This document shows, in pieces, positions 10,679 to 53,694 of a stretch of DNA of 64,000 nt (the stretch's first letter is position 1; every line of letters starts with the position of its first letter). The position numbers were made by a program, and so were the translations under genes. The stretch is taken from contig NC_091947.1 of NCBI RefSeq assembly GCF_041260155.1, forward strand, positions 25,319,615-25,383,614. Reading direction: 5' to 3'. Source of the DNA: Ptychodera flava (Eukaryota; Hemichordata; Enteropneusta; Ptychoderidae). The notes beneath the pieces are model-generated. The model did not search any database and was not told the DNA's origin. It worked only from the letters and a program-made list of their open reading frames with translations.

Positions 10679-10887
10679 TCTAAATTGAGCTGCGTGCTGC
10701 GGAGATTGCTCGGTTGACGCTATCCCACTTTCGCTGAAGCTAACACCACCTCCTCGATCGGGCGTTTATGTAGATTCGGGCGCAGGAAACGTGATACAGC
10801 GCCGTTCAAGCTCTTTCTGTACAGGATTCACCGTATTTTTCATTTTATTCTCAAACCCATCGTATTTTTTCACCATCGACTCAATAA

Positions 10888-14856: not shown

Positions 14857-15364
14857 AAAGTTAATACATTAACTGGTTTCAAATCCATGTGGAGCTTGCT
14901 AGAGGGATCACTGTGTTTATTCATTGTTTATCCACAAGCATTTGTTTTAGTATTTTTAGAGAGTAGTAATATTTTATGTAAAGCCACATTTACATCGTGA
15001 AGGTTACATTTCCATATGCAACTTATTGCCTTTCATGACACATTTGAATATTGTAAAGGTCAGATTTCCATATGCAACATTTTGCCATTGTCAAGGTTAG
15101 ATTTCCATAAGCAAACTTATTGCCTTTCAAGGCACATTCAAACTATAAAGGTCATACTGTATTTCCATATGCAACATGTTGCCATTGTCAAGGTTAGATT
15201 TCCATATATTAAGTTAACTTATTGGCTTCAAGTCACTTTTGAATTGTAAAGGTCACATTTCCATATGCAACGTTTTGCCTTTATAAGCGGGTAACTAAAC
15301 CCATTCCGCAGTCTGATTTTAGCAGCAGTTTCGATGCCGTCCTGCTTCCAGCTGCAAGCCTTTC
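14857..15364 (+). repeat. Ngaro A1 repeat
   Basis: Left terminal repeat, about 508 bp, matched by A2 at 19820-20324. It contains several short internal tandem units built on 'aggttagatttccata' and 'catatgcaac', and ends in the 'ctgcttccagctgcaagcc' block. Confidence 0.9.
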
Positions 15365-15613
15365 TGCAAGCCTTTGATGCTGTCCTGCCTCCAACCATCA
15401 GCCTCTGATGTCGCCTAACCTGCAGCTTCCATCCTGTAGCCGTTGATGCCGTTCAGAAAGCAGCCTTTCCAGTTGCAGCATCGCAGACCACAATAGACAG
15501 CCTTCGACAGACTGCGCGCCTCAGCAACATCTGCAGCCACAGCGGACAGCTTCCAACAGCGGCAACCACCAGTTCCAAGATGGCCGATTAGACAACAGAC
15601 TGAAGACGTCAAC

Positions 15614-16864
15614 ATGGAAACACCAGGTATGTTGACGTTAAACCTAACACCCCAGAGCCAGAAAGCACTGGTCGAAGAGGTTGGTACCGGTCCCGAAACT
15701 CCAGCTGATGTTAAACAATGGACGGCTGACAACGACCTTACCCCCATTACAATAGCACGTCTAGCGGCAGGGGGATTCGTCACTATGAAGTCAATGCGCC
15801 TTATAAAAGACTCACATATCACAACGCTCGAAATTCAACCAATCGCCCAGTGTTGCCTCCTCGAAGAAGCAGTGAAAAACTTGCAGCTCACCATCAAAAG
15901 CTCCACAGAAAATAACCAGTCACCACAACAAGCACTGCTGAAAGAAACTGAAAGACGACCCTCCGATGAACCTCAACAGTTAGCGTCGGAAACAGATGCC
16001 ACCAGAGCAACAGTAGACAACAATGCAGCCGACACTGGCAGTCTTCTCCAGCAGCTCCTGAATCCCGCTTGTGGTCAACCAAATGCAGCTCCAGCCGGAA
16101 CAACACCTCTGCAAAGTCTGCTGAACTCTTTGATTAAGTCACAAACTCTTGCTAACTCTAATGACACTGTAAATCAGCCTCGAGCCGATTTAGACCCGAA
16201 AGTCTATATGCAAACAAAGTCAAAAGGTGAGAAATATGCTGATATCTTAGATTACTTGTCACCAGCTGACAAGGCTATCGAACAACACGTTATTAGTACA
16301 GGGAAAAGTGGCACTCGTTTGGTCTTAGAGTCAGAAACAAAAAAACCCAGTTTAGAGTCAGTTACGCCATCCCAGTGGATGGGGGCCAATGCAGCCATTC
16401 TTTACGAAAAAATTGAAAATGGGTCATTACAAGGTAACGGTATTCTCAGCTATTTGGCAACCAAAAAGATCTCTCGATTAGCAAATCGGTACACCTGGTC
16501 TTCTGTTATCCAGTTCGATAGAGAATACCGCCAATATCAAGCTACCCACAATTTCCCGTGGGGTTCAGATATAGGCCATTTAACCTCTGTTCATTTGAGG
16601 GACAAAGTGCCATTTTTCCCTAACAGCCATAGAAATACGGCAAATACTGGGAAAAGTTATACCCAATTTGAAAACAATACTGGTCGAACCCAAGCTCCAA
16701 TTGACAGCCAATCTGGTCGGCCAATCTGCTTGGGATTTAATAAGGGTAGCTGTAAATTTGGTCTCACATGCAAATACGCTCATGTTTGTCTTGATGCATC
16801 TTGTAGAAAACCTCATCCCAAATCTGTTCATGATTCAGCCGCTACTCCCAGTCCAAAAAACTAG
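15614..16864 (+). CDS. Ngaro ORF1, gag-like protein with CCCH finger (fossil)
   Basis: First protein of the Ngaro-like element, 416 residues, starting METPGMLTLNL. Gag-like proteins of this order are thought to bind the element RNA. The N-terminal half is Gln/Thr/Ser-rich and probably flexible. The C-terminal part has a finger of the form C-x7-C-x5-C-x3-H (CLGFNKGSC..CKYAH) followed by a second Cys/His cluster (CLDASCRKPH). It precedes the reverse transcriptase frame by about 25 bases. Confidence 0.75.
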   Translation: METPGMLTLNLTPQSQKALVEEVGTGPETPADVKQWTADNDLTPITIARLAAGGFVTMKSMRLIKDSHITTLEIQPIAQCCLLEEAVKNLQLTIKSSTENNQSPQQALLKETERRPSDEPQQLASETDATRATVDNNAADTGSLLQQLLNPACGQPNAAPAGTTPLQSLLNSLIKSQTLANSNDTVNQPRADLDPKVYMQTKSKGEKYADILDYLSPADKAIEQHVISTGKSGTRLVLESETKKPSLESVTPSQWMGANAAILYEKIENGSLQGNGILSYLATKKISRLANRYTWSSVIQFDREYRQYQATHNFPWGSDIGHLTSVHLRDKVPFFPNSHRNTANTGKSYTQFENNTGRTQAPIDSQSGRPICLGFNKGSCKFGLTCKYAHVCLDASCRKPHPKSVHDSAATPSPKN

Positions 16865-16887
16865 ATTGTGAGTCACTGCCTTCTTTC

Positions 16888-18528
16888 TTGCCAAAGCCAC
16901 CCACCACTGAGTTTTCTCTTAACTATTCCGTTTGGCAATCGGAGTTACAAAATGACCCTGATGCCGATTTTCTTCTTACTGGTATTCGAGATGGCTTTCA
17001 CATTATTGATGACTCCTCTAATTTACAGCCTGCGTACATGAAAAACTACAAATCCGCTACCGATTATGCTCGCCAGCAAGTTGAAGCTCAGTTGCTTGCT
17101 GAAATTGCTGAAGGTCATTATTTGGTTACCGATCAAAAGCCGACTATTGTAAGCGCACTGGGAGCTATCCCTAAGCCAAACTCTTCTGAAATCCGCCTGA
17201 TTCATGATTGTAGTCAGCCATATGGCAAGGCCGTTAATGATTATGCCACAAACCAACATTTTCAGTATTAGTCGCTTGATGACGCAATTAAGCTAATTTC
17301 TCCCGGTAGCTATCTAGCCAAGGTTGATCTTAAATCTGCCTATCGTTCAGTTAAAATTCACCCCTCCAACTATCCAGCCACAGGCCTTGAATGGACGTTT
17401 CAAGGTCAAACTCGCCCTACTTACCTTCATGACACCCGCCTGCCATTTGGTGCAAAACTTTCTCCAAGTATTTTCCATAGGTTAACTCAGAGTGTTAGAC
17501 GGATGATGGCACGGCGTGGCTTTAATGCTATGGTTGTTTACCTTGATGATTTCCTCATAATTGCTCCCGATTACAATTCCTGTTTAGAGGCTCTAAATAT
17601 TCTCCTCAGTCTACTAAGAAAGCTAGGTTTTCGTATTGCCTGGAAGAAGGTAGAAGGCCCTACTCAATGTTTAGTTTTCCTTGGCGTGGAAATTGATACT
17701 TTACTGCTTACTTTAAGCTTACCGCAGCCAAAGCTTAAAGAATTTTACGATCTGCTCCTTAAGTTTTCTTTGAGAAAACGGGCTACTCGTCGCCAGCTTG
17801 AAACCCTCGCAGGCAAATTGGCATGGGCATGCAGAGTTATCAAAGGAGGTAGAACTTTCCTCCAGCGTATTCTCTCCCAGCTAAGCAAATTACGCCGCTC
17901 TTCGCACAAAATGCTCTTATCTAAGGATTTCCACCTTGACATCCAATGGTGGTTACAATGCTTGCCTTTGTTCAATGGTGCTACGAAGTTTATCGATCCT
18001 CGCCCTATTACAGATGTTCATATCGATGCGTCTAATTTAGCTTCTGGTATTTTCCACAGAGGGGACTGGCAGTATACCCTGTGGTCTTGTGACTGGCCTG
18101 CTGTTGCTTCTCTGCACATTAATCATAAAGAAGCTTTGTCCATTATTTTAGCTGCTAGACGCTGGGCAAAGCATTGGACGAATTCTACGGTCCATATCTT
18201 CACAGATAGTACTGTTGCCATGGCCTGTATCAACCATGGTACTTCACGCAATCCTGTGGTAATGTCCGCCCTTAGGGATTTGTTTTGGTTGTCAGTCAGA
18301 TACAATTTCAATATCAAAGCAATACATGTCCCAGGTAAAGAAAATGACATTCCAGATGCAATTTCACGATTGCATCAACGCGGACAAGCTTGGCGTCTTT
18401 ATTCCCTTCTTTTCTCTCAATTTAGCCCAGCAGTACCTTTCTCAGATTTCATTTCAACTTTTCGCAACCATATGTCTGTTACTGCTGCTTTAATTCTTCA
18501 CCCTCAGATCATCAACTCAAGCAGCTAG
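16888..18528 (+). CDS. Ngaro reverse transcriptase-RNase H region (fossil)
   Basis: Encodes reverse transcriptase and RNase H, which copy the element RNA into DNA. Visible marks are an early palm block (KVDLKSAYR-type), the catalytic YLDDFLII box (the YxDD motif), and then an RNase H domain with HIDASNLASGIF, HINHKEALSIILAA, FTDSTVAM and a closing VPGKENDIPDAISR block. The order RT then RNase H then recombinase is as in DIRS/Ngaro elements. The region carries about one apparent break. Confidence 0.85.
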
Positions 18529-18685
18529 AGTCTGAACTGGACCTAGAAATTGCTTTCTACAGAGGCCATACTTTTGCTCAGTCAACGAAAACCACATATG
18601 CAGTGCACCGGAAAGCTTATCTTGAATTTGTCTTTCTTTTGGCTACTGTCCTGTTCCAGTTGACCCCCTCGTCCTGTGTAGGTAT

Positions 18686-19492
18686 GTGGTCTATCTTGCT
18701 CGGCGCCTAAAAGTGTCTTCTATCCGTCAGTATCTTAACATTGTTCGTCTCCTTCACTCAGAATGTGGGCTTCCTAACCCTCTTGACAGTGCCTGTAATT
18801 TTACTCTATCAACTCTCCTCAAAGGTATAGCCTGTGTGAAAGGTTCTTCGGTGTCCCGTAAACTCCCGATTACACCTGTTCTCTTACTTGGCATTCGCTC
18901 ACAGCTAAATTTGGCCTGTACTGTTGATTTAGTTTTCTGGGCAGTTTGTCTGGTGATGTTCTTTGGTTTATTCCGTAAGTCAAATGTTCTTCCACCTTCC
19001 CTTAAATCTTTTGATTCTTCCAAGCACCTTACCCGTGGTGACTTCTTGACTTTTCCTTGGGGTCTTGGTGTTGTTGTTAGATGGTCAAAAACAATTCAGA
19101 CCAAAGAACGTGAGCTTATAATTCCTCTACCCATCATCCCAGGGCATCTTCTTTGCCCAGTTTCTGCTGTGCTGTCTGCTTTTCTTGCTACTCCTGCCCC
19201 GCTGGAGGGTCCTGCTTTTATCATTCCCCCAGCCCACCCCATTCTCCCATCTGCTTTCTCCAAGCGCCTCCTCACTCTTTTGACCCCTATTGTATGTAAC
19301 GTTGATCAGTATTCCACGCACAGTTTCCGTCGGGGTGGTGCATCATGGGCCTTGCAATGTGGCATTTCTCCTGAACTTATTAAGTTGTTAGGTGACTGGA
19401 AAAGTGATTCTTTTAGAAACTATTTACACCCTTCCCTTCCCCTCCGCATTGAGGCAATCAGTACTTTTGCCAAAAACCTACCTACTTCTTAA
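18686..19492 (+). CDS. Ngaro tyrosine recombinase (fossil)
   Basis: A 268-residue frame with a phage-integrase-type tyrosine recombinase fold. The first catalytic Arg region is FFGLFRKSNVLP; the HxxR box is THSFRRGGASWAL; the LLGDWKSDSFRNYL segment carries the likely catalytic Tyr. Such recombinases replace the DDE integrase in the DIRS order. The domain may begin a little upstream of the first Met shown. Confidence 0.85.
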   Translation: MVYLARRLKVSSIRQYLNIVRLLHSECGLPNPLDSACNFTLSTLLKGIACVKGSSVSRKLPITPVLLLGIRSQLNLACTVDLVFWAVCLVMFFGLFRKSNVLPPSLKSFDSSKHLTRGDFLTFPWGLGVVVRWSKTIQTKERELIIPLPIIPGHLLCPVSAVLSAFLATPAPLEGPAFIIPPAHPILPSAFSKRLLTLLTPIVCNVDQYSTHSFRRGGASWALQCGISPELIKLLGDWKSDSFRNYLHPSLPLRIEAISTFAKNLPTS

Positions 19493-19527: not shown

Positions 19528-20910
19528 GACTTTAGTCCATAGGTTAGTTGTCTGTTAGTTGTAGTTAGGTTAGCAGTGTTTGCCCCCTAAGCCAGCATAC
19601 CTCATCTGTTTTGTTTACCTTCATTTGCATGCCAATGGGGCTAAACACGTGACCTGTTAGTTTATTAGTTCATAGTTGATTGTTATTGAATAAATACCCC
19701 CTACTGATCCAAGATACCTGTACCTGTGTGTGCGCTTGTTGTTTGATCAGTGATCCCCCCCCAACTTTGACGTTCTCAGCTCTAAGCCTCTCTTCCTCCC
19801 GCGTAACTAGGATTTGAGGCAAAGTTAATTCATTAACTGGTTTCAAATCCATGTGGAGCTTGCTAGGGGGGATCACTGTGTTTATTCATTGTTTATCCAC
19901 AAGCATTTGTTTTAGTATTTTTAGAGAGTAGTAATATTTTATGTAAAGCCACATTTACATCGTGAAGGTTACATTTCCATATGCAACTTATTGCCTTTCA
20001 TGACACATTTGAATATTGTAAAGGTCAGATTTCCATATGCAACATTTTGCCATTGTCAAGGTTAGATTTCCATAAGCAAACTTATTGCCTTTCAAGGCAC
20101 ATTCAAACTATAAAGGTCATATTTCCATATGCAACATGTTGCCATTGTCAAGGTTAGATTTCCATATATTAAGTAAACTTATTGGCTTCAAGTCACTTTT
20201 GAATTGTAAAGGTCACATTTCCATATGCAACGTTTTGCCTTTATAAGCGGGTAACTAAACCCATTCCGCAGTCTGATTTTAGCAGCAGTTTCGATGCCGT
20301 CCTGCTTCCAGCTGCAAGCCTTTCCCTCCCTACCCACCCTTATTTACGTATAGTTTGACAGTGACTCCGCATTTTTATTTATTGTATGGTTTATAGTTTC
20401 TTTCCTATCTACGTATGATTTGTAATTCATTCAGCTCATTATCATATGAGTTTATACAATTAATGATCTGTATTTTTCTTTTCTTACTTTTATTTGATAT
20501 GTAATTTGATATTCATTACTGCCTTTAACTACAGGGCAAGCTTTATTCATTTACTTGATGCCCTTTGCTTGATTTATTATGATTAATTTCTTTGTTCCGC
20601 TTTACAATTGTAGGGGAGTTTAGACTTTAGTCCATAGGTTAGTTGTCTGTTAGTTGTAGTTAGGTTAGCAGTGTTTGCCCCCTAAGCCAGCATACCTCAT
20701 CTGTTTTGTTTACCTTCATTTGCATGCCAATGGGGCTAAACACGTGACCTGTTAGTTTATTAGTTCATAGTTGATTGTTATTGAATAAATACCCCCTACT
20801 GATCCAAGATACCTGTACCTGTGTGTGCGCTTGTTGTTTGATCAGTGATCCCCCCCAACTTTGACGTTCTCAGCTCTAAGCCTCTCTTCCTCCCGCGTAA
20901 CTAGGATTTG
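19528..20910 (+). repeat. Ngaro B1-A2-B2 right terminal repeats
   Basis: B1 (19528-19816) and B2 (20623-20910) both run from 'gactttagtccataggttag' to 'cgtaactaggatttg'. A2 (19820-20324) repeats A1. Three bases separate B1 from A2, and 298 bases of unique AT-rich sequence separate A2 from B2. A (TA)n stretch begins right after the element end. Confidence 0.9.
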
Positions 20911-27525: not shown

Positions 27526-27810
27526 TTAACCCTTATCCTGTTAGGGCTGTCACTGCACCATCTGCCAAGTCAGTAAAAAGCAGTATTGAGCCAAAGGCTA
27601 CCCGTATTTTCAACCACTTTGCATGGTAACTTGCAGCAGGTTAAGTCAGTAAAAATCATGTTTACAGTATCAATGTTTTTAGGGCCTTCCAATTTTCAAG
27701 ACTTTGTTTAAAATGCACCATATGGGACATGTTATGCTTCACTGGTTTTAACCAACTTGACCTGACAGTGAATATGAACTTATCCAAGCAGCATAAGAGC
27801 AACTAACTAT
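27526..27810. mobile_element. TTAA MITE family M2, copy 1 (diverged)
   Basis: Begins TTAACCCTTATCCTGTTAGG and shares 'aagtcagtaaaaagcagtat' and later blocks with the copies at 30236-30508 and 61486-61770. The right boundary is approximate. It lies just beyond the stop of the minus-strand gene, in its likely 3' UTR. Confidence 0.65.
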
Positions 27811-27858: not shown

Positions 27859-29235
27859 TCAAAGGAAGAAGTTGTTGGCTTTCTTTGGACAATGAAATGT
27901 CACATGTCTCTGACTTCCACACAGAATACACGCTTTACGAGCACCGAAATTTGCAGTTGCCAGTGTATCGTCCTCACTTGAGATACTCTCACTGCTCTCA
28001 GGGGGCGTGGTCAAGTCATCAACGTCATCCCTCTTTCTTTCTGCATCCTGTTTTCTGTAGCTTGGGGCGTACTTCTGATACACAGGACAGGCCCTGAGTG
28101 CGTGCTTATTGCTGCCGCAGATTTCGCAGTGCCTGAATGGGTTTGACTTCCTGGCTTTTGAAGGCGACGATCCCTGACTTGTGACGCTGGCTTGTGTTGG
28201 ATGCTCTGCAGATACTACGGTGGAAAGTTTCTGGCTTTCAGACAAACTTTTATGAAATGTATTTCCAAGGTCTAGAGGGTGAGGTGATGTGAAAGTACTG
28301 TCTCTCAGCATATCTTGCTGTTTATGTTTGCTGCCAAACTGCTCTTTCTTTATTTCCTTTAGAGATACATCATCTTTTGTACTCCCTGGGTTGCACTCCA
28401 TCTCTTTCTCATCAGATCCATAAGACCGACTACCATTCAAACTCTCTGCAGCTCTACCACCTATAGGGTTATCATTTGTTTCATTTCTGTGTCCAACATT
28501 TCTCTGTAACGGCCTTTTCGGAGGAGTGGTTTTCTGCTTTCTCCTTGCTTATCACTGGTCTGCTGCCTATTTCAAGACTGCCCACTGATGATCTCTCATC
28601 AGAGTGCTGTCGTTGAAACTCTTCCTGCTGTTGCAACACTTCACTCTTAATCAGCCTGATTGCATCTGCAGACATGTTTGGATACGTTCTACTGCTGATG
28701 CCATCGTCCCTACGAACATGACTGTGACCTTCATGTTCCTCTGCACCACAATCATGATTATCTCCATCATCATCACCTGCAGTTACCAGAGCAACATCTT
28801 CATGATCATCATCACCATTATCATCATCATCGTCATCATCATCACCACCACCACTATCACCACCACCACCAACAGCAGCACTAGCCTTCAATGCTACATG
28901 ACCATTTCCCTCCCTAAGTTCTTCCTTGTCAAACCTGCGCAGCTGGTCAGCTTCTGTGGCTGACTTTGATGGACTAGTTTTCTTCTGTGCAGAACTTCCA
29001 AAAGAGATTGTTGTTTTCTTTGTGACAAGATTTTCCACTGATCTGGTCTGGTTTTGCACCCTCTCAACTTCGCTATTCTCGGTTGCAGATCTTGGAAGAT
29101 ACTGTGCAGCCAATTCAAGGTTAACATTTCCACTTTGAACAAGCTGCCCCATTGTAATTGACATGCTTGTCTTTCCCTTCTTGCTCTCTTCCGGTACAGT
29201 TTTTTTATCAGATTTCTGACACACTTCTCCCAGTC
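27859..29235 (-). CDS. Last exon: acidic linker and two CCHC zinc knuckles
   Basis: Starts LGEVCQKSDKKTVPEESKKG, has an Asp run encoded by an ATC-type trinucleotide repeat on the + strand (28,750-28,870), and ends with two zinc knuckles: CEICGSNKHALRAC and CILCGSQRHVTFHC (both C-x2-C-x4-H-x4-C), before the stop at 27859-27861. The reading frame changes once between about 28,530 and 28,565: the first part reads ...GSRPVISKE and the second ...TTPPKRPLQRNVGHRN. With no good small intron there, this is either an assembly indel or a damaged allele. Confidence 0.75.
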
Positions 29236-32200
29236 CTGCAAAAAAGAATGGGTAAGCACTAACACAATTGTAAAAAGGAATGTCTGTTGTCAATCATGAG
29301 AAACGATAAATTGTATAGGTAATCCTAATTTTCCATGAAATATTTTGGCAGAAAGAACACCTTTTCCAACACATACCAAGAAGCCATTGCCGAACTGCTT
29401 ACTTTTTGTCTGAAGGTACATCTGTATTTCCAGAATTATTCCTGGAAGAAATCCACATTCCTTGAGGACAGATTTGAGATCATTCCAGTCAGCCATGAGA
29501 GCTGAATCCTAGGAAAAAAGAATTACGCTGTAACGGTTATTACATTATCTTGTTCAGAAAGTAACCAAGCATACAACAGAACATTACCTGAGAGTGACAT
29601 TGCTCCTTTCCACAAACAACCTGAACTTTACACACACCACCAAAAAATAGCTTGAAATTCACAGCCTTTTTGTTTACTATTATGTACAAAACTAATCGTC
29701 AGTGAAAGCAAAAGAGCTTATCAAAGAGTGTTAAAATTTGGAATATTGTTAACGCCACTGTTCTTGTCACACAATGCCAATTAATCATAATGATACTCAG
29801 TGTATCTCGACCTTTTTCAGGGATTAACTGTGTTGCTGTGTAGAAATCTAATTATGGAATTTTGACTCTCTGTGAAGATATAAATTGTTTTGACTATGGT
29901 ACCACTGGAATAATTCAGTACATCAAGAATGATATGAAAAGGAACTGCCACCCTCATAGATTCTATTGGATGAAACACTATGGCACTGGCATGCAGCCAC
30001 CACTCTGGTTCTCACTTCCTTACCCTTATACCATTTTCAACAAATTTGATGAGTAACTCTCCCAGGCCGAGCTCTCTTAGAATTCTTTGTATTTTATTGT
30101 ATGGGTTTGCAGCTGCAACTACACTTTCTTCCTCTGTTTGTTTCACTGGTGGATCAAAAACATCCTGCTCGACAATAACTGGAGATGTGACTGTGAATTT
30201 AAAAGAAAACATTCACTCTGTACTTTGGCATATCTTTAACCCTTTTCCTGCCAGACAGTATCACTTCCCAATCAGCCAAGTCAGTAAAAAGCAGTATTGA
30301 GCCAAAACATGACGTATTTTCACCCGCTTGGCTTGGTCTGTTATAGCATCTTTGGTCACAGAAAATAAAGTTTACAGTATTTATGTTTTCAACAGCTTTC
30401 AAATGTACAGTATTATGTTAAAATACACCATATGGAATATGTTGTGTTTCATTAATTTTAACCACCTTGACCTGGTGGTGAAATATGGACTTGGCAGAAA
30501 AAGTGTCAAACTGTTCACCCCTGATTATCGGTAAACAGGTCCACGATCACCATTGGTAACAATAGGTTGGGGCTGGACCATGGTGGTAAAAGGGGTGAAT
30601 ACAACATTACTGTCACTACACATAGGGCAATATTGACATTTGTGCTCCAAGCACAAGGCTCTTGGCAGTTTGTGTAAAATCAAAGGAAGCCATACAATAT
30701 ATATGTGGTGCCTCCCCTCCTATCCATGAGACTTTTAACCAAGGAGGAATTGATGAGGGCACTCATAATATACAGGTGTAGCCTTTGTGTCAAATATATG
30801 GGAAGAGTAACCAAACTCACCCTTTCTTTGTGCTTCATCTGGTGGATTTTCTGTATCATTAACTTGAACACTTGCCTCTTTGAAGTCCACAGTATCAGTG
30901 TTAACAGCTCTGTGTGTGGCTGTGACTGTTTTTGAAGTTTGTTGTATTTTCACTGTTGGTACTTCTGCCCAGCCAGCTGCTCTCAGAAGCATCAAATCAA
31001 GCAGTTTTGCCTTCACTTTCCTGTGTGGAATATATCAAATGTACTGTGCTTGCTTTCATCATGATGAAATACATCCCCTTACACAAAGAAGTTAAGAAGC
31101 TTGACCTCAAGGAGAATTATTTGCATAGATGTTTGCCTGACCTCTGAGGTTTAGGAATATCTAGATATCTATACCTGTACATGTAATATGTACAATTTTC
31201 TTGAGCTAGAGAGATTTTAATATTTTGGTCAGAGGTGCATCAATGCGGCTTTGTGGGCACATTGTATTCAATATCAACGAGCATAGAGTGAAGAAGGTAC
31301 AGAAATATTACTCCAAATAACACTGAACATCTTCCTGCTTGTAACTTGACAAATTGTAATTATGCATTTACCACCACAATCAGACCCAAATGATATCTCT
31401 GATTATTCAATGCTTACCATGGCATATGCGTATCAGTCAAGACTCTATCCCTCATCATGGCAAAATATCGGTCAGAAAGAACCTTGTTGTGTTTATCCAA
31501 GTGGTTCCCAATCACTCTGAGCAGCTCTGTCAGGCAGTTGGAGTATGAATCCAGCAAGGTGTCTGATTGTTGGTGATATCCCTGTCAGTAATTTAGAACA
31601 TAACGTCTGAACATATGGTCGAAGTTTAGTAGGCTGTCTGACTTTCTTAACTTACAGTTACATATTTCTAAAATGTTTAGAAAGGTAAATTGACTGTTTG
31701 CTTTTCAAAAATAAATACCATTTGAGTTATTTTTGATAAAAAATTGGTTTTGCTAAACCGTTATTATTAATACCACTGGACCTGAACAGAGTTCAGTGAA
31801 ATTTCTTCACAATATGAGCGGAATTTTCAAAGGGCTTACATTATACCCATTGAAAATTCTGCTCATATTGTGAAGAAATTTGCAGTAGAGGAGACTGTTT
31901 TGACATACTTTTCTGTTGAAGATGATCCATTTTTCAATGCTGCTGTGTACACATGCTGACACTTGTTCCTTGAGACCTGATGTACTCTCAATGGCCATCA
32001 GATACAACTTGCCAAGCAGAGAACTGTACCATTTGGAATGTTCACTGTAACTTCGAGTGGTCTGAGAAATTAAGAGGAAGTTTATCAAGGTCTGACCTGA
32101 CAAAATACAATAGGATCTAATCTATCCCTTATCGGAATTTGGTCAAAAAACTTGCATGACCATGATATAAAGTGTTCAGTAGTATAAGAAAGTAGCTACA

Positions 32201-35200
32201 GTGTATTTGTACTGAACTTAAAATCAAGCAAACTTAAGAAGTACTCTAAATGCAACTGTAATGTCTTTGTTAAACCTCTTAAATGCTAGTATTGCTATTT
32301 AGTTTGAGATAACACCATTTTCCAAGTACATTAGATATGAGCTTGCCAATCTGCAAAACAGTCTGAAAACATGGGATAAGCTTCAATACTCAATTTCTCC
32401 CTTTTCCACTTGATCGCTGGAGTAAAAAGTGAAAAACATTGTTAGAGTCACTGAAATAGTCTCTCCTAGCTATGTTGATACAATTTTTGTTGATCAGTTG
32501 GATCAGCTGCAGAAAATCATTTACCTTAATATAATCCCCAACTTTCTTGCACAGAACCTGGCTAACCTGTTGATCAAAACCTGTATCCAGGCCTGCAATA
32601 AAAGGAGTCCACAAAACAATCTGATAAAGTGTCTTTGAATTACATTAGAATGGCATCATTTGTACTACGGTGTGCTTGCAAACTACAAAAAAAAGTTTTG
32701 CCCATCAAAAAACTTCATACCGCTATTTTCTTATAATCTAAAGTTTTACAAACAAGTCTCTCTTTAAGGGAAAGTGCACCTCGAAGACAACTTTAGAATC
32801 ACAAATTTTTACAATCCTTCTCTGGTCTATCAGGCTACAGAACAGGTCCTGAACTTCTGGATTTTCAGCTGCAAAGTTGATAATATCTTCCAACAATCAA
32901 TAAATTTGCACAAACTTTAGGGTAGAATCCACCTCAGGGACAGATACTTGGACTCTCAAACTTTTACAATTCTTTTCTGATCTACCACTTTTTGGGATTC
33001 ACTTTAAAAGTCTTGGTGTAAGAAAACTTTTTGGAGTCTTAGTTTTTTGAAAAATCGAATACTTTATTTTCTCCATATTTTCTCCAGTTAACACAAGGAT
33101 GGCAGCCATTTTGAATTTCAAATATCGGTAAATCTTGGCTAATTTGTTTCTCTAGCACCAAATTTTGCGCGAAATCTCAAATTCAATGAGAAAATACCTT
33201 CAAGCTGCAGTACCAGGCTACAGACCAGGTCCTGAACTTCTGGATTTTCAACTGCATAGCCGATAATCTCTTCCAAGACGATAAATAATTGCTTCGGCCA
33301 TGGATATTTAGCAAGCTGTGATACTCCTGTTGGTATAAGGAGAAACCAAAATAGTCTAAAATCCAATAGCTCTGCATTGCTGACACCGAGAACAGAATGT
33401 CTTAACACAAATTCTATTGGAGCCATTGAAATGTTAGCTATGGGAACAAAGCATACCACAATTTGATGACATGATATCATATTTAGTCCACTGTCATTAT
33501 GTCTCGTTGTGTTCACAGCCCATCCTGAAAACCTTGCAAAAATCAAATGCTTTCTGTTTTCGACAAACTTGTCAGGCCACACTTGTCACACGACTTACAA
33601 GTATACTGGAACCTAGTACTGTGAATTTGAAAACATCATGGTAATAGCCACATGTATTTATGATTTATGATTCGTTTTGCAGTACAAGAAAAAAAGAGCA
33701 AGTAAAGAGAGTTTGCCTGAACAAGCCTAAATTAACAGTTGGTATCAAAACCAAAAATACCGAATTAAGCTTTCCATTATAAAATGTGAGCACTGGTATG
33801 TCTCTCTTTATAAGTCACCACTAAATCTTTTAAGATGGAGCTGCATGTTGCCAACACAGTTTTTGTCAAAGCAATATATATCTAACCTTAGCTTTAATAT
33901 GAGTTGGACTGTGTATGTTGCATCATCTTTCTCATAAAAATTCTGTAGAAAACTATGTTTTATTGACAAGACCTTGAATATGAACAACATCTTCATTTTG
34001 ATAATGTCTTAAAGATATCTTTGCATACATTACCAGTGTTAACAATCTTCTCAATTTCCTGGACAACATTAACCATTGTTTCTTCTGATAATCCAATCAG
34101 AAGCTATAACACGAAACAGATGTTCAGATGAACAGAATTGGTTGAAACAGACTGAGGGACAAGATACCGGTAGTTCATGACAAATGATACACAGTGCTCT
34201 TTTTTATTATAGTCTTATCACACACACACACACACACACGCACATACACACATTTAGTTAAAGGAATTCTAAAAGTAATATCCCTACAACTAATGAGTGT
34301 TGTTTTTGTGATACAAGGACTTACGTAAACACCTTAAGGCAAATCATAAGCAATATCTGTTATCATGAAATCTTGATTAAGTGCCACAGTCACCACATAC
34401 TCATGGCTGTTTGTAGATGAATTCCCAAGGCTGGCCTTACCACAACTTGCACAAGCTTAGTAAATGAAATGCTAAGAACAAAGAGAATGTATTCTGTAAG
34501 ATGAAACATGCAGAGATTTTTTGTATGTGAGGTTTTATTGGTGACCTGCAGAGATAATTTAAAAGAAAAAACTGAAATAGGGTTGGATATAACCTACCGC
34601 CTTGACTTTCCTCTCTATCTTTGATTTCTGCCAGTCATATTCCGTTCGCATGAGATCCTTTTCATTCACCTGTGGTGTCTGAAATTTCTGCTTGGCTTCA
34701 AAGTCGGAGTCTGCCATCTCCTGGCCACCAGCTCTTGGCATTTGTCTTCCATCCAGCACGGCTTTACCAGCATCTCCAGGCATCCTCCTCCAGTCTTCCC
34801 GGGAGAACTCTTTCCCATGGCGGTATTTCTTGCCAGAGTGTTGTCTAACTTTGTGCTGACTGCCTTTATCATAGTGTGAAGGCTGAGGTCTGACTTTGCC
34901 TCTGTAGGTGTAACCGCTGTGCCAAGAGTGATTGACTTCCAGATTGGACTTCCTGGGCCACCTGTGGTGTTGAAGGTTTTCAGCAGAACTGGTCCCCCCG
35001 GTGAAGTCCTCTCTGTAACTCTGCCTCTCTGTCCATGCGTTTGGCTTCTGTACTCTGGTATCCGAGGACGACCTTTGGAATGCATTCTCGACTGCGTATT
35101 GGGCAGTATTGCTTTTTATCGCACTGAAGTTACCTCTCCCTATTCCTAAAGTGAAGGAAGAGAATGAAATCCATTTGGAAAGCCATACCGGTATCTCTCA

Positions 35201-38200
35201 ACGTATCAATCCAGGGTTAGTGTCTATGACTGTTGATTGGACTCTGATCAAATGTATCACCATATAATGATTGATACATAAATTCTTTAGTGTCATTATT
35301 ATTTATTGCCATTATTCACCAAAGCTCACTAGTCTAACCAACTAAAAGACTGAACAAACAGAATATTAACCAATATTTAAACATTTATGCTATCAGATGA
35401 ATGAAAAACACAATCTGATCCAAAAAATAACCCAAGTATCGATGTATTCCAAAGGAATTTCAGCAGGCTTATAATGAACTTACCTTAGACACTAACAGAT
35501 TATCAATTTGTGAAAAACAATGAGGCTTGTAGTACATAGAAAGCAAAAGACCATGGCTCCCACTTAGTATCAACTGGCAAGGTCAATGCCAGCAACTCTG
35601 TCAGCTGTCTAAAAAACAACCTTCATCCTCAATGTCCATTAATTTTACCAGGCATGCCTGGGAATTACATTGAGCCTGATTTCCCAGTTTACACACACAT
35701 AATAAAATGAAGTATGATGAATCATATCTAAACATGCTTGTCTCTTGATTTTCACTTTCAAAATTATCCCAGTTTTAACACTTTGAAATGATCCTTTGAA
35801 AGGATGATATGATCATATTACTTTACATCTTTGAATATCTAACACATCTTACACAAACACATATGCATGCGACATATTTCAAACATGCACAGACATGCAC
35901 ATAACATGATCATAAAGCTCTTTCCCAGTGAAAGAATGATCAATTTTTAATTCTTTTACTTCCATTCAATGCATATTTTGAAGGGTTTATGGAGTGATAG
36001 CAAAGGCAGAGTATAACACCGCACTGAAAACTGAATTGACACTATCTTGTTGAATGTTACTTCTGTTTGGTAAATCGATGCACTGTACTTCCATAAATTA
36101 CAGGTGATTCTTAGAAAAAAAATACATGAAGGCCCATCAGCTGCAACTTTTTGCATTCCATTATTTTCATGTTATGATTCCAACTGAACTTGATACATGA
36201 GAACGTACTTACTGAAAGATCATGGATGTGTATAAAAGTATGATTAACTATGGACTGGAAATGCATAATTATGCAAATTTCGACAAGGTTAAGGGTTCTC
36301 TACTAAAATATGGTAACTTCATGTAAATGTGCAGAACTAGTGAACATGCCCATTGGTATGTATACATGTATATGGACATCAGAATCCTAAAAGAAACATA
36401 TTTTAACCAATAAGAACACTCAGCATGAAATGTCCCACACGTGAATGTTGTTTTTCAATTATTTTGCAAAAGACAAGTTTTCTTTGAATATCAAGAAATT
36501 TCAAATGAATTGAAAACTGTAAAATTTACTTTACCATTTTGACATCTATTAAATTGTTGAAACGCAGTGAAAGGCTATTTTGTTTTATGGGTAGAACTCA
36601 GAGAACATGAGAGAAAATTTCAAGATATTTCAATGCGAACAAATTACAAAGAGATGCAGTTCTTGAGCCTGTAACACATGGTGTAACCTTTCCACCTGTT
36701 TTCCGTCCTCAGTGGTCTAACTCTGCCTTTGAACACTATTGGGGGTCATATCAAAGTTTTGTGATGTAAGGGTTAGAGTTGCAAGCGAGAAAGAACTTTT
36801 GAAAACATGCTGCATGCACCATACCTCTGTGCAAACTGCGTTTCTCAGCCTTATAACCTGACACATCCTGTGCTCTCCCTGGCCTTTCGAAATTGTTAGT
36901 AAATTTACGAATTGGGTTCAAAAAATATTAGTAAGCACAAATTATGTTATTCTGAACCCACCAACTTTCAACAAGCACTTCTGGTACTCAATAGATGATT
37001 TTAAGGGGATAGAAATGATGAATGATTTCATTATAGACAAAAGAAAATGAAAAATCCCTTTTTAGTTTTTTTGACAATGAACACTCATATTTTGATACGC
37101 ATTTTCAAAAGATTTATTGAATAACACAGTACATCATGGGTCATGAATGCTTGTAACATTGAAATTTCTTCCTTGTCTCAATAAAGTGTGTAATTTTGGT
37201 CAACGGCCAATGAATGTTATTCAATTACTTGATCTTTATTACACAACATAACATGTTCAAGTATATTGTGACACAAATCATAACTCCCTTTGTGTGTGTA
37301 GTCAGTGGTTGATGATTATATATATTAATTTATGAAGCGGTCATTAATATTATCAAATATTATCAGTGTTTGCACAAGTTTTTGATGCTAGAAAATCTGT
37401 CCCCTGTTTTTCATATTTGGAAAGCTCTGTTACTTTGAAAGTATGCACGTCATCCATAGGTACTAGGTGGTGCCTCTATAGCTGCAGTCATTATGCCATG
37501 TTCATCTCTAAATTCTTTTTAAACAACCACTGATCAGAACATTTGGCAGTCTGTGTTTCGCACAAATTTTGTCTCATCTCAATCAAATTTAAGTACGCAA
37601 ACTGAGACTGGTGATCCTGCTAATGTTTTCTTAGAGACAGTTACACTTTTAAAACGCTGCAGATGATCGTCATTTATTTTTTTGTCTGGATAAACTTTTT
37701 GGTCATGGGACTGTGCACAGCATTTTCTCTGGATCATAGAAAACTATCAGTATTCATAACATTTGCTGAGACAGTTTCTTGTAAATATTTGAAGGAAACC
37801 TATTAAAATTGGCAAGCTGACTGAAAAATTCAATTTGCAGATCGTCAAATGACAAATCTATGACATCTAAGATTTCCGGCTCGCTTCCACCTCCATGCAC
37901 AGAAAACACTGTGCAGTACATGTTCAACCATGCGCGGCCCGGACTGCAGTTCTGCTGTAGTTCGACTGTCTTTCAGGCTGACTGTTCTTGATCTCTTCTA
38001 GCTCGGCGGTTTCATTGTTTCGTATTTTTTTCATATCAGTTGCCGTTTTTATGCCCAACTTTCTTTCCCAACTGGATACTATCAATCCAAAGTATTTGTA
38101 ACTGCCCGCTTCCCTCGATCCCCTTCAACAGTCCATTCGGAAAGTTGACAGCATGTGAGTGTTTGGGTGTCTCGAAACTACCGTAATGGGGTGGTAATGC

Positions 38201-39492
38201 ATGACACACCACTATGAGATTACAAAACCCGGGGATCTTGAAACCTTTTCGCGCATGCTCATGTTATTACAGGTCAAAGTCCAAAGCCAGCTATCACCAT
38301 GTGTCGATGCGCCGATGATAGGGGCAGCGTAGGTTTTGAAAGACGAGATATGACAGTATTTCCCCGGAATTCACAATCTTGACCGAAAATCAGGCTTCAA
38401 AAATAACAAATCGTTCGTAAATGGCCGATCGGGCATTCATTTTTTTCGTAAATTTTCATTTTTGTTCGTAATTTACGAAAGTTACGAGCGACAGCGAGAG
38501 CACAGCACATCACAACGCAAATCTGCTGAAGACCTGTCAGACGCATCGCTCCAATAGCCCTCAATGATGACAGCACCACCCTTACTCTCAGACGCCTGTC
38601 TGTCATCACTGGTGTTGTCGCCATCACTACTGACACTCTGGCAAACCTGGTCATAGGCAGCATTCATCTTGGCTGGCACACTGTAAACAAGTCTCTCATT
38701 CTTAAATTTACCTGGAAATTCATCCTGCTCTCTGAATCCGCCGCTTTGCTGCAGCTCTGGTCTCATCTGCACTGGTTTATCTCCTCCTGTCTCACTGAAT
38801 GTCATCATTTCTTCTCCGACAACACACTGCTTTGCAATATCAAGGTGTCTGTATGGATAATTCTTGCAGTGCTTGTGAGCAAATTTATGAGTTTTGGTAT
38901 TTCCTACCGGGTCTGGGTGTGGATAACCACCCCACGCCCTTGGACCAGATTTTTCATCAGACGTTTCCTCTTGAAAGACAGATGGGGGAAGGAGATCTGT
39001 TTGACTTTTGTACGGTGTTGGCTCAGAAAACACACCCATCTGAAGCACTGGCATGTCTGGATCATTTATTTGCACTTCTTGTTGTTGCTTTCCCCCGACA
39101 TCAAGATGCTGTTTCAGATGTAGTTGCCGCTGAAGCTGCTGTTGGAAAGCGTCTTCCTGCTGTGGGCATGGTTGGCACTGCTCCACTTGATTGTCACCTC
39201 GCATTTGCAGCCATGGTTGATGTTCATGCTGTACATGCTGCTTTTGTTGATGTGGCAACTTGTCCTTTCCTGGTTCGTCTTCAGATTCTGATGATGTACT
39301 GGAGGTTGTATCAGTTGAGTAGTCGCTGCTTTCTGAACTTGGGTCAAATCTCGCAGCAATCTGTATTTTGCCAGGCCCTGAACCTGACTTAGAATGGCCA
39401 CTGGCTGATGTTGGATGGCTTCTGTGTAAAAAGCCAACACCTTGTGACTCCATGGTATGGGCTGTTATGGACTGCATAGTCAGTACTGGTTT
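27859..39492 (-). CDS. Host gene: MIF4G-like + SAM-like + double CCHC zinc-knuckle protein
   Basis: Minus-strand gene; exons in transcription order: ~39492-38490, 35145-34598, 34103-34029, 33942-33819, 33437-33387, 33326-33198, 32592-32525, 32061-31909, 31581-31418, 31020-30821, 30190-30032, 29501-29403 and 29235-27859. From the second exon on, all donors are GT, acceptors AG, and every phase agrees. MIF4G domains bind RNA, eIF4A or cap-binding partners; SAM-like domains bind RNA or proteins; CCHC knuckles bind RNA. I infer an mRNA/translation regulator. The MIF4G closing segment LLDLMLLRAAGWAEV resembles those of MIF4GD, PAIP1 and CTIF, but I know none with this full order. Estimated length is about 1,200 residues. 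The 5' exon and promoter were not found; the join between the first two exons is unresolved. Confidence 0.8.
29403..30190 (-). CDS. Two exons encoding a SAM-like domain
   Basis: Exon 30190-30032 encodes an acidic lead (TEEESVVAA) and then NPYNKIQRILRELGLGELLI, KFVEN. Exon 29501-29403 continues ALMADWNDLKSVLKECGFLP and GIILEIQMYLQTK. Together they follow the SAM plan: a first helix with LxxLGLxxLxxKFxEN, a middle Asp-rich loop, and LKxxxGFLPGxxLxIxxYLQ at the end. The second exon uses the AG of 'gattcag' at 29502-29503; using the earlier 'cctag' would break the frame. Confidence 0.65.
30236..30508. mobile_element. TTAA MITE family M2, copy 2 (in an intron)
   Basis: Starts TTAACCCTTTTCCTGCCAGA and ends near 'ttggcagaaaaagtg', with inverted ends. 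Closely matches the copy at 61486-61770. It lies in the intron before the SAM-like exons of the minus-strand gene. Confidence 0.8.
30513..30600. mobile_element. 88-bp palindromic MITE
   Basis: Inverted ends TTCACCCCT and AGGGGTGAA enclose about 70 bases, including 'ggaccatggtggtaa'. It abuts the M2 MITE. Non-coding. Confidence 0.5.
30821..34103 (-). CDS. Exons encoding the MIF4G-like helical repeat domain
   Basis: Eight short exons give about 300 residues of helix pairs. In order they include LLIGLSEETMVNVVQEIEKI, NFYEKDDATYTVQLILKLRL, NISMAPIEFVLRHSVLGVSQ, LFIVLEEIIGYAVENPEVQD, LDTGFDQQVSQVLCKKVGDY, YSSLLGKLYLMAIES, LLDSYSNCLTELLRVIGNHL and MMRDRVLTDTHMPW-KVKAKLL. The pattern (paired amphipathic helices, 'LLGKLYL', a closing basic LLDLMLLRAAGW helix) is that of MIF4G domains in PAIP1/CTIF/MIF4GD-like proteins. 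Assignment rests on pattern, not on a profile search. Introns hold a duplicated exon piece (32,829-32,905) and a strong hairpin (31,799-31,881). Confidence 0.75.
31799..31881 (+). other. Intronic long hairpin, 32-bp arms and 19-base loop
   Basis: Arms 31799-31830 and 31850-31881 pair along all 32 positions when read as + strand RNA, with a single G-U pair; the minus strand has an A-C mismatch there. It lies between two MIF4G exons of the minus-strand gene. The shape (about 83 nt, one stem) suits a small-RNA precursor or a very small snapback MITE. Confidence 0.5.
32922..33180 (+). repeat. Interspersed repeat R1, copy c (intronic)
   Basis: Reads 'gaatccacctcagggacaga' through 'gttaacacaaggatggcagc' to 'cgcgaaatctcaaa'. 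Same order of blocks as the copies near 195-432 (reversed) and 13,270-13,590. A 60-bp piece of its start also occurs at about 32,775-32,828, joined to a copy of part of the neighbouring exon. Confidence 0.65.
34219..34249. repeat. (CA)n microsatellite
   Basis: About 30 bases of near-perfect CA repeats in an intron. Confidence 0.9.
34598..35145 (-). CDS. Second exon: basic linker leading into the MIF4G domain
   Basis: 548 bases, 182 codons after a split first codon. It is rich in Arg, Lys, His, Gln and Ser, with HSGKKYRHGKEFSREDWRRM and a closing QTPQVNEKDLMRTEYDWQKS-KIERKVKA. The last part looks helical and may begin the folded domain. Donor GTAGGT. Basic low-complexity composition is common in RNA-binding linkers. 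Confidence 0.7.
35146..38485 (-). other. Large intron of the MIF4G/SAM gene, no feature seen
   Basis: About 3.3 kb of AT-rich sequence between the first two visible exons. I found no further exon with protein-like composition, though one is possible because the phases of the flanking exons do not join cleanly. No clear repeat ends. Confidence 0.4.
38486..39492 (-). CDS. N-terminal exon of the MIF4G/SAM/zinc-knuckle gene (disordered region)
   Basis: Begins after a good acceptor (tttgtgtctcag). Likely start codons in frame are at 39477 (MQSITAHTMES) or 39453 (MESQGVGF). About 330 residues, low-complexity: Ser/Thr/Asp-rich SSESSDYSTDTTSSTSSESE, then a Gln/His-rich stretch, then a segment with KTHKFAHKHCKNYPYRHLD. 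No folded domain is recognised. The frame stops at 38482-38484. The exon must end one base into a codon to match the next exon, for example the weak donor after TTGC near 38,507, or else an exon is missing in the 3.3-kb gap. Confidence 0.6.
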
Positions 39493-49957: not shown

Positions 49958-50018
49958 GTATGGAAGACCGGTCACGACCTGCGACATACGACCTGCGTTT
50001 TAAAGTAGGATCTGCGAC

Positions 50019-50047
50019 CTAACCCTAACCCTAACCCTAACCCCTAA
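50019..50047 (+). repeat. Interstitial telomere-type repeat, left
   Basis: About four CCCTAA units directly inside the FB2 left end, reading CCCTAA on the + strand. Confidence 0.9.
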
Positions 50048-50160
50048 CGCTAACTAACCTTAGTTATGCCGTTACAATTTTTCCCTCCCTTGACCTAATC
50101 TCCAGGGTTGAGAAAGAAGTAAGGCTTTTTACCAGAGAAAACCTAACCCCTAACGGGTCC

Positions 50161-52240
50161 GTGAAGTTTGTTACTTATTCCTTTTTCCTTATTCCTTATT
50201 CGAACGTGAAGTTTGTTCCTTATTCCTTTTTCCTTATTCCTTATTCGAACGTGAAGTTTGTTACTTATTCCTTTTTCCTTATTCCTTATTCGAACGTGAA
50301 GTTTGTTCCTTATTCCTTTTTCCTTATTCCTTATTCGAACGTGAAGTTTGTTCCTTATTCCTTTTTCCTTATTCCTTATTCGAACGTGAAGTTTGTTCCT
50401 TATTCCTTTTTCCTTATTCCTTATTCGAACGTGAAGTTTGTTCCTTATTCCTTTTTCCTTATTCCTTATTCGAACGTGAAGTTTGTTCCTTATTCCTTTT
50501 TCCTTATTCCTTATTCGAACGTGAAGTTTGTTCCTTATTCCTTTTTCCTTATTCCTTATTCGTTACTTATTCCTTTTTCCTTATTCCTTATTCCTTTTTC
50601 CTTATTCCTTATTCGAACGTGAAGTTTGTTACTTATTCCTTATTGGTTATTCCTTATTCAAAATGTGAAGTATGTTAGTTATTAGTCCCAACGGACACCG
50701 TGCGTGCGTGCGTGTGTCCGTCCGTCTGTCAATGCGTGCGTCCATCCGTCTGTCTGTCCGTTCACGCAGATATCTGAGAGATGTCAAAAGCGATTTCATT
50801 CAAGTCTGTTACTTATTCCTTTTTCCTTATTCCTTATTCGAACGTGAAGTTTGTTCCTTATTCCTTTTTCCTTATTCCTTATTCGTTACTTATTCCTTTT
50901 TCCTTATTCCTTATTTGTTACTTATTCCTTTTTCCTTATTCCTTATTCGTTACTTATTCCTTTTTCCTTATTCCTTATTCGTTACTTATTCCTTTTTCCT
51001 TATTCCTTATTCGTTACTTATTCCTTTTTCCTTATTCCTTATTCGTTACTTATTCCTTTTTCCTTATTCCTTATTCGAAGTTTGTTACTTATTCCTTTTT
51101 CCTTATTCCTTATTCGAACGTGAATTTTGTTCCTTATTCCTTTTTCCTTATTCGTTACTTATTCCTTTTTCCTTATTCCTTATTCGTTACTTATTCCTTT
51201 TTCCTTATTCCTTATTCGTTACTTATTCCTTTTTCCTTATTCCTTATTCGTTACTTATTCCTTTTTCCTTTTTCCTTATTCCTTATTCGTTACTTATTCC
51301 TTTTTCCTTATTCCTTATTCGTTATTTATTCCTTTTCCTTATTCCTTATTCGAAGTTTGTTACTTATTCCTTTTTCCTTATTCCTTATTCGAACGTGAAG
51401 TTTGTTACTTATTCCTTATTGGTTATTCCTTATTCAAAATGTGAAGTATGTTAGTTATTAGTCCCAACGGACACCGTGCGTGCGTGCGTGTGTCCGTCCG
51501 TCTGTCAATGCGTGCGTCCATCCGTCTGTCTGTCCGTTCACGCAGATATCTGAGAGATGTCAAAAGCGATTTCATTCAAGTCTGTTACTTATTCCTTTTT
51601 CCTTATTCCTTATTCGAACGTGAAGTTTGTTCCTTATTCCTTTTTCCTTATTCCTTATTCGAACGTGAAGTTTGTTCCTTATTCCTTATTACTTATCTTT
51701 ATTCAAAATGTGAAGTTTGTTAGTTATTCCTTATTCCTTATTCCTTATTCCTTATTCGTCACTTATTCCTTTTTCCTTTTTCCTTATTCGTCACTTATTC
51801 TTTTTCCTTATTCCTTATTCGTTACTTAACTTTTTGACTTATTTCTTATTCGAAATCTGAAGTTTTTTACTTATTCCCTATTCGAAATCTGAAGTGTGTG
51901 ACTTATTCCTTATTCCTTATTCCTTTTTCGAAGTTTGTTACTTATTCCTTTTTCCTTTTTCCTTATTCGAAGTTTTTCCTTATTCCTTATTCGAAGTCTG
52001 TTACTTATTCCTTTTCCTTATTCCTTTTTCGAAATCTTAAGTTTTTTACTTATTCCTTTTCCCTTATTCCTTGTTCGAAGTCTGTTACTTATTCCTTTTT
52101 CCTTATTCCTTATTCGAAATCTAAAGTTTTTTACTTATTCCCTATTCGAAATCTGAAGTTTGTGACTTATTCCTTATTCACAACCTGAACTTTTTTACTT
52201 ATTCCTTACTCGAAATCTGAAGTTTTTCACTTATTCAAAT
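50161..52240 (+). repeat. 45-bp minisatellite with 776-bp higher-order repeat
   Basis: Nine near-identical 45-bp units lie at 50,161-50,565. Beyond that, shortened units ('ttcgttacttattccttttt' type) alternate. A block with 'gttagttattagtcccaacg' and GTCCGTCC tracts occurs at 50,672 and again, almost identical, at 51,448, giving a 776-bp higher-order period. Because 45 is divisible by three and stops are absent, all forward frames stay open (15-residue repeats such as VKFVPYSFFLIPYSN). I read this as satellite DNA, not protein. Confidence 0.9.
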
Positions 52241-52623
52241 CTGAAGATTGTGACGTTCGTGAAGTGCATGCAAGCAGGTAGGTATTCGGTCGTCCATCTG
52301 TGCCAGAAGTGTTGATGTATAAATTTTGCAAGATATCTGGCGCGTTTTTTTATTGTTGCCCGGTACCGATCATGTGCAATCGTAGGTGCTGTCCTTTCAT
52401 CCATGTCGATCAGTTCATAAGTATTGAAAACCGCTTGTGACCTTTGCCGCTCTCTGTGATATCACGTTTAAATGCCCATACCATAGAATCAGTCGCCGAC
52501 AGCGGCATCGGTTTCAATGCACACGCCGTTGTGGACCTTCGCTCATCATCGCCAGAACGCATGCAAGCGCATGTGCATATGAGTCCCGCTGGGTGGTCAA
52601 ACAGCCAAGTTAATAACGAAGCT

Positions 52624-52875
52624 TAACTTATAAGTTCATCTAGGCTGAAGCGAGTGCAGCCCAAAACTTTCTCCAAAATCCAACCACCAAACCATGTAGT
52701 TCCTTTGGGAATAAAATTCCTTTCGACGCCAATATTGTTCATGTATTCTGTTTCTTCTTGTGTTTTTAGAAGTTTATTGATTTCTTCAGAAGCGGAGAGA
52801 TATGTTGACGCGTTATCCGATATTACTTGGATCGATTGTAACTCGTGTTTCCCCGTGGTATTAGAATTGGAACTT
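52624..52875 (-). mobile_element. BEL/Pao-type integrase fragment (fossil)
   Basis: On the minus strand about 80 codons resemble the catalytic core of a BEL/Pao LTR-retrotransposon integrase: VISDNASTYLSA (second catalytic Asp block) and, at the expected distance, FIPKGTTWFGGW (the FxPxxxxxxGG block). No terminal repeats, reverse transcriptase or protease are nearby. It is a broken fragment, clearly old, lying in the unique centre of FB2. Confidence 0.7.
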
Positions 52876-52914
52876 TTGTCTCGTAGCTGACAGTAAAGCC
52901 ATGTTGTAAGTTCA

Positions 52915-53295
52915 GGTTGTGAATAAGGAATAAGTCACAAGCTTCAGATTTCGAAAAGGGAATAAGTAAAAAACTTAAGATTTCGCATAAGGAATAAGGA
53001 AAAAGGAATAAGTAACAAACTTCGAATAAGGAAAAAGGAAAAAGGAATAAGTAACAAACTTCGAATAAGGAAAAAGGAAAAAGGAATAAGTAACGAATAA
53101 GGATTAAGGAAAAAGGAATAAGTAACAAACTTCGAAAAAGGAAAAAGGAAAAAGGAATAAGTAACGAATAAGGAATAAGGAGAAAGGAATAAGTAACAAA
53201 CTTAAGATTTCGAAAACGGAATAAGGAAAAAGGAATAAGTAACAAACTTCACATTTTGAATAAGGAATAAGGAAAAAGGAATAAGTAACAAACTT
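52915..53295 (-). repeat. Right-arm minisatellite of FB2 (inverted)
   Basis: Repeats of 'ggaataaggaaaaaggaata' and 'agtaacaaacttcgaataag' are the reverse complement of the left array, in shorter and more varied units. Confidence 0.9.
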
Positions 53296-53304
53296 CCCAG
53301 ACCT

Positions 53305-53338
53305 ACCCCTAACCCTAACCCTAACCCTGACCCTAACC
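53305..53338 (+). repeat. Interstitial telomere-type repeat, right
   Basis: About five CCCTAA units (one CCCTGA) just inside the FB2 right end. They read CCCTAA on the + strand, the same as the left block, so they are direct, not inverted, copies. Confidence 0.9.
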
Positions 53339-53622: not shown

Positions 53623-53694
53623 GGCTCGTTGGTCTAGGGGCATGATTCCTGCTTTGGGTGCAGGAGGTCCCGGGTTCAAATCCCGGACGAGCCC
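53623..53694 (+). tRNA. tRNA-Pro: tRNA-Pro (anticodon UGG)
   Basis: 72 nt with all four arms. Acceptor stem GGCTCGT / ACGAGCC with discriminator C; anticodon stem CCTGC/GCAGG with loop TTTGGGT (anticodon TGG at 53655-53657); T arm CCGGG-TTCAAAT-CCCGG. The internal A box (TGGTCTAGGGG) and B box (GGTTCAAATCC) are intact, and a TTTT terminator follows at 53703-53706. Nearly identical to vertebrate tRNA-Pro as I remember it. No intron. It looks functional, although it lies next to foldback DNA. Confidence 0.96.

Follow-up and report, generated by a model that had tools for sequence, protein, structure and literature searches.

Within a window of 64,000 nucleotides (nt) from Ptychodera flava (contig NC_091947.1, positions 25,319,615 to 25,383,614; all coordinates below are those of the window), a minus-strand locus running from 39492 down to a stop codon at 27859 is read here, with a confidence falling just short of even, as an intact cellular gene that encodes an RNA-regulatory scaffold about 1240 residues long, mostly of low complexity. 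Directly seen are an open spliced chain, the C-terminal half of a MIF4G-type domain and two exact zinc knuckles in an adjoining reading frame; a weakly supported SAM-like region lies between them. Most likely, the locus represents a new arrangement of known parts and no new kind of system. A first-pass annotation of the window had described these three parts in one host protein behind a long Ser/Gln-rich head, and had suggested that no named family contains them all.

The chain comprises 11 minus-strand exons (A to K) joined by 10 GT-AG introns in consistent phases and with no internal stops, amounting to 1193 residues, or to 1236 with a proposed additional exon (exon X), when the count starts at the first codon past the acceptor of exon A. 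Splice sites were scored with metazoan consensus frequencies and expressed as percentiles of all GT or AG in the window; in the 12-exon model, 21 of the 23 sites lie at or above the 90th percentile, and both sites below it belong to the last intron (28555-28504). The in-phase chain with standard sites proposed by the first-pass annotation is thereby upheld in its ten GT-AG joins and open frame, though not at its last junction, which is not standard, and one in-phase exon (33326-33198) was probably overlooked in it. Exon A (38712..39492) does contain the Ser/Gln-rich head in an open frame, both of its splice sites standing at the 99th percentile; its first ATG is codon 6 after the acceptor, and it offers two fair in-phase donors, at 38712 (99th percentile) or 38586 (95th). 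Exon B (34598..35145), with an open frame and strong sites, encodes a linker whose KVKA end is the start of MIF4G helix 1. In the 1236-residue model, the MIF4G domain occupies approximately residues 440-659 and the SAM-like region residues 733-795, the knuckles starting at 1148 and 1214.

The MIF4G assignment was evaluated with a profile made from five M domains, taking as comparison the 750 open reading frames (ORFs) of at least 40 residues in the window. The predicted protein scores 34.8-36.7 bits across all four exon models, with shuffled sequences reaching 8.4 bits at most (264 of 300 reported). Exon F (31418..31581) contributes the strongest part: its ORF alone, at 21.5 bits, is the best of the 750, and the next reaches 5.7. 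Single-sequence phmmer searches against the PDB place MIF4GD first (E 2.9e-4 to 4.7e-4) and eIF4G2 second (E 2.6e-3 to 5e-3), the values for the preferred model with exon X being 4.6e-4 and 2.6e-3, respectively; eIF4G1 and eIF4GII follow at E 0.33 to 1.1, and a few unrelated chance matches appear at E 0.78 or above. Each of the matches to MIF4G proteins covers the domain's last 60-70 residues; those to MIF4GD structures run across exons F and G, the latter (30821..31020) encoding the domain end (LLDLMLLRAAGW) and a linker. The C-terminal HEAT repeats also carry the MIF4G superfamily pattern CL..ll..iG..Ld...d.yf..m...R..gW. At the level of sequence, the C-terminal half is thus well supported as MIF4G-type, and the N-terminal half is suggestive. 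Other exons assigned to the domain are exon C (34034..34103), in phase and assigned to helix 1 by global alignment, in which LLIGLSEETM follows the VKA of exon B and has VRGILNKLTPEKF as its counterpart in eIF4G2; exon D (32525..32592), in phase and with strong sites; and exon E (31909..32061), in phase and placed by profile alignment, whose LLGKLY resembles FIGEL of eIF4G and FLGELY of PAIP1. Whole-domain global alignments against full shuffles give z-scores of 10.4 for eIF4G2, 7.6 for MIF4GD, 5.8 for eIF4G1, 5.4 for eIF4G3 and 4.5 for PAIP1. Of the PAIP1/CTIF/MIF4GD-type helical domain formerly proposed, the C-terminal half is borne out by the profile and the PDB matches, while the N-terminal half is insecure and Pfam is silent. 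As for kinship, MIF4GD is indeed among the two best-aligned of the five references, but PAIP1 is the weakest, and was dropped as nearest relative on that account.

Exon X (33198..33326) would encode the MIF4G domain's second helical repeat, and is proposed on splice score and alignment rank. The C-D intron was searched for in-phase, open exons of 30-299 nt whose acceptor scores 0 or more and whose donor scores -1 or more; among the four candidates obtained, 33326-33198 ranks first both by splice score and by alignment. It reads VLEEIIGYAVENPEVQDLVCSLVLQL, which the global alignment sets beside VILLIVDKALEEPKYSSLYAQLCLRL of eIF4G2. Its inclusion lifts the global alignment to all five references, the summed score rising from 441.6 to 558; when X is shuffled, the five means still sum to 531.5, so most of this gain is added length. 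On this sequence evidence, exon X is probably real and missed in the first chain. An alternative model, extending exon D to 32410 and starting exon E at 32096, also restores the domain length, but was set aside as no better (donor at the 72nd percentile, 35.1 bits). A 66-base-pair (bp) copy of the exon X core, 89 per cent identical, is found at 32828-32893 with a stop just upstream and no acceptor discernible by eye, and is regarded as a relic; since some 7 base changes alter 6 of its 22 residues, it appears unconstrained.

The zinc knuckles CEICGSNKHALRAC and CILCGSQRHVTFHC, starting at 28128 and 27930, match CX2CX4HX4C exactly, as had been annotated, and are the only matches to it in the six frames of the window. 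Both are situated in exon K (27859..28503), together with the protein tail and the stop. The best zinc-knuckle Pfam model, zf-CCHC_3, gives 17.9 bits, below its cut-off of 27. CX2CX4HX4C is described as the knuckle pattern of human ZCCHC proteins (PMC11508327). The SAM-like region is divided between exon H (30024..30190), which contains a linker and its first half, is in phase and has a weak SAM profile score, and exon I (29403..29508), in phase, with its second half. Cut out and compared with a small SAM profile, this region obtains 9.5 bits, above all 750 window ORFs (next 5.4) and 200 shuffles; when Smaug and Vts1 are added to the profile it obtains 10.9 bits, a score reached by none of 1000 shuffles (852 reported, best 4.6).

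Several known systems share features with the predicted protein. The M domain of eIF4G2 (DAP5/NAT1) gives the best global alignment of the five references, and KV..IL..L.PE, A.E.P and the C-terminal repeat are common to both; in contrast to eIF4G2, a SAM-like stretch and knuckles follow here, Pfam finding no further domain in the chain and no match to MA3 or W2, two other eIF4G features. MIF4GD (SLIP1), the best PDB sequence match, differs in being a single-domain protein, its solved chain having 222 residues. PAIP1 and CTIF resemble the present protein in having a single MIF4G domain. CTIF is reported to replace eIF4G on mRNA bound to the cap-binding complex (PMC4141738). By analogy, CTIF and NOT1 may serve as working models, kinship with either not being established. 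Concerning the ZCCHC proteins, the CX2CX4HX4C knuckle is also found here, and the SAM of ZCCHC14 has a possible counterpart in the SAM-like region; nonetheless, ZCCHC14 and ZCCHC2 are not known to possess a MIF4G domain or more than a single knuckle, while the present protein has two knuckles and does not show the basic residues characteristic of Smaug-type SAMs. ZCCHC14, with its central SAM, and ZCCHC2, with a C-terminal CX2CX4HX4C knuckle, are described as TENT4 adaptors (PMC11508327).

As to function, MIF4G proteins contribute to the choice of the helicase or initiation factor that is brought to an mRNA. In the scaffold envisaged here, the knuckles would hold RNA and tether the protein to it, the MIF4G domain would dock an eIF4A/DDX-helicase-type or eIF3-type partner, and the target mRNAs might thereby be supplied with, or deprived of, a machine for translation or decay; the SAM-like region could join copies of the protein or bind a partner. 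As neither a PAM2-like nor an eIF4E-binding motif is recognized by simple patterns, a link to the cap or to PABP is not seen. A more specific proposal, which we consider rather unlikely, is that of an undescribed invertebrate family combining an eIF4G2-like MIF4G domain, a SAM-like oligomerisation module and two knuckles into a self-assembling, RNA-tethered scaffold for translation or decay, devoid of cap and PABP contacts. If true, a MIF4G protein equipped with knuckles of its own, and perhaps with a module for oligomerisation, would constitute a ready-made tether of chosen mRNAs to such helicases or initiation factors, and orthologue searches could directly test how far it has spread or been lost among animals.

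Different results weigh against the reading of the locus as one intact scaffold gene. Neither orthologue nor transcript was observed for the gene, and Pfam returns no MIF4G match at E up to 10 for any of the four exon models, the preferred one included, nor any SAM match under the same limit. The N-terminal MIF4G half alone scores 0.4 bits on the local profile with exon X (1.4 without), and 53 of the 443 shuffles reported reach 0.4; against MIF4GD, the score of this half in three earlier models is attained by 281, 978 and 975 of 2000 shuffles, respectively. Exon X itself lowers the local profile score from 36.7 to 35.8 bits, with 263 of 300 X-shuffles scoring no lower, and the real global score is reached by 31 of 1000 X-shuffles for eIF4G2, 51 for MIF4GD, 514 for eIF4G3, 612 for PAIP1 and 674 for eIF4G1. 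No YxxxxL-phi eIF4E-binding motif was found with a simple pattern, and the PAM2-like motif, the PABP contact of PAIP1, is absent from the chain from exon A onward by a loose pattern. Given that eIF4G2 itself is not known to have an eIF4E site, the lack of that motif does not exclude eIF4G2. Finally, the 52-nt intron proposed between exons J and K (28504..28555) has weak sites, its donor at the 75th percentile and its acceptor at the 56th, and J-K joins with better-scoring sites exist.

This last point makes the join of the knuckles to the rest of the protein the weakest link of the gene model. Exon J (28556..29235), an open frame of low complexity with an Asp-rich run, runs into a stop of its own at 28481 unless an intron is spliced out, and the protein would end there, free of knuckles, should no J-K join or assembly error hold; the knuckle ORF would in that case be a separate or alternative end. 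Such an outcome, favoured by the two poor sites and by the stop in exon J, appears distinctly unlikely to us, because J and K have open frames that share 68 nt, the 52-nt GT-AG join is exactly in frame, a total of 335 in-frame GT-AG joins lead from J into the K frame in the region scanned, and a single-base assembly error would likewise connect both frames. Each of the ten best joins listed has sites superior to those of the 52-nt intron, at the cost of part of exon J, and both knuckles are retained under any of the in-frame joins listed.

Whether the SAM-like region deserves its name is also debatable, and it is quite possible, albeit somewhat less likely than not, that it corresponds to some other small helical segment and not to a SAM domain. 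The profile alignment is limited to residues 19-51 of the 80-residue query (about 33 residues), only the first residues of exon I lying inside it, and visual inspection shows about 4 more residues between DL and G than in a usual SAM. Nine known SAM segments score 16.4-49.5 bits on a profile deprived of themselves and their namesakes, versus 10.9 bits for the region, which falls to 4.9-10.1 bits with reduced profiles, the lowest value arising when four caskin segments are removed; within the whole protein it reaches 4.3 bits, below one unrelated ORF (5.4), and no SAM is found among its six PDB matches. On the other side stand the shuffles, none of which reached 10.9 bits, and the 9.5 bits of the isolated region, higher than any window ORF. 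The SAM-like domain of the earlier description is consequently retained as a weakly supported SAM-like region, above all shuffles and below known SAMs. The basic residues in LGARRKLL of Vts1 play a role in RNA-hairpin recognition; by eye, LPGIILEI stands here against that segment and against TKGASHKL of Smaug, and the basic residues starting the last helix are missing. Hairpin reading of the Smaug type consequently seems unlikely from the sequence, and a Smaug/ZCCHC14-type SAM was set aside on the same grounds.

A further alternative concerns the MIF4G part, which might act in decay as a NOT1-like scaffold for DDX6 or CAF1 instead of serving initiation. NOT1 uses its MIF4G domain to dock CAF1, and the same domain associates with Me31B/DDX6 (PMC10164591); the absence, by simple patterns, of eIF4E- and PABP-binding motifs points in the same direction; on the contrary, the best alignments among the five references are those to eIF4G2 and MIF4GD, NOT1 being outside that set, and we regard a NOT1-like role as unlikely. 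The locus might also be an orthologue of a family that animal databases already list with a plain or "uncharacterized" label, and would then prove ordinary on inspection, a reading that we place somewhat below an even chance. The gene is intact and clearly exonic, and relatives were sought in viral and prokaryote collections; against this, the parts tested reach no Pfam family cut-off, and full-text literature searches, judged mainly from their listings, gave no protein with a MIF4G domain, a SAM domain and CCHC knuckles. The former statement that no named family is known to have all three parts agrees with those searches, although the parts themselves are unequal, the MIF4G domain being half-secure, the SAM weak and the knuckle join poor. 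No relatives were detected in the viral contigs or prokaryote genomes scanned, and megablast of the knuckle ORF against phages gave no match; as these contigs and genomes hold little animal DNA, and one viral-contig scan used a query from the set-aside extended D/E model, the scan negatives say little.

Repeats and other elements were also observed in and around the gene. The intron just after exon E contains a self-complementary stretch (88 per cent) of about 83 bp at 31799-31881. In the G-H intron, a repeat of about 250 bp (30255-30503) is 91.6 per cent identical to 61516-61764, far outside the gene, and has a more distant copy (75 per cent) at 27526-27781. On the plus strand, a retroelement at 15497-19492, which we take to resemble DIRS elements, comprises a CCCH zinc finger ORF (PF00642, E 3.1e-5) and a reverse transcriptase (PF00078, E 2.6e-18), and also matches a tyrosine recombinase weakly (E 0.095); it is flanked by tandem arrays of a near-identical 92-97 bp unit (14993-15279 and 19958-20239), perhaps its terminal repeats. 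A 138-residue open frame with a Pro/Tyr-rich run and no Pfam match lies on the minus strand at 10349-10765. Further along, a long CTTATTC minisatellite extends over 50018-53338, its second part reversed, with short CCTAAC runs on both borders that resemble telomere repeats, and an Rfam tRNA match of 55.6 bits is found on the plus strand at 53623-53694.

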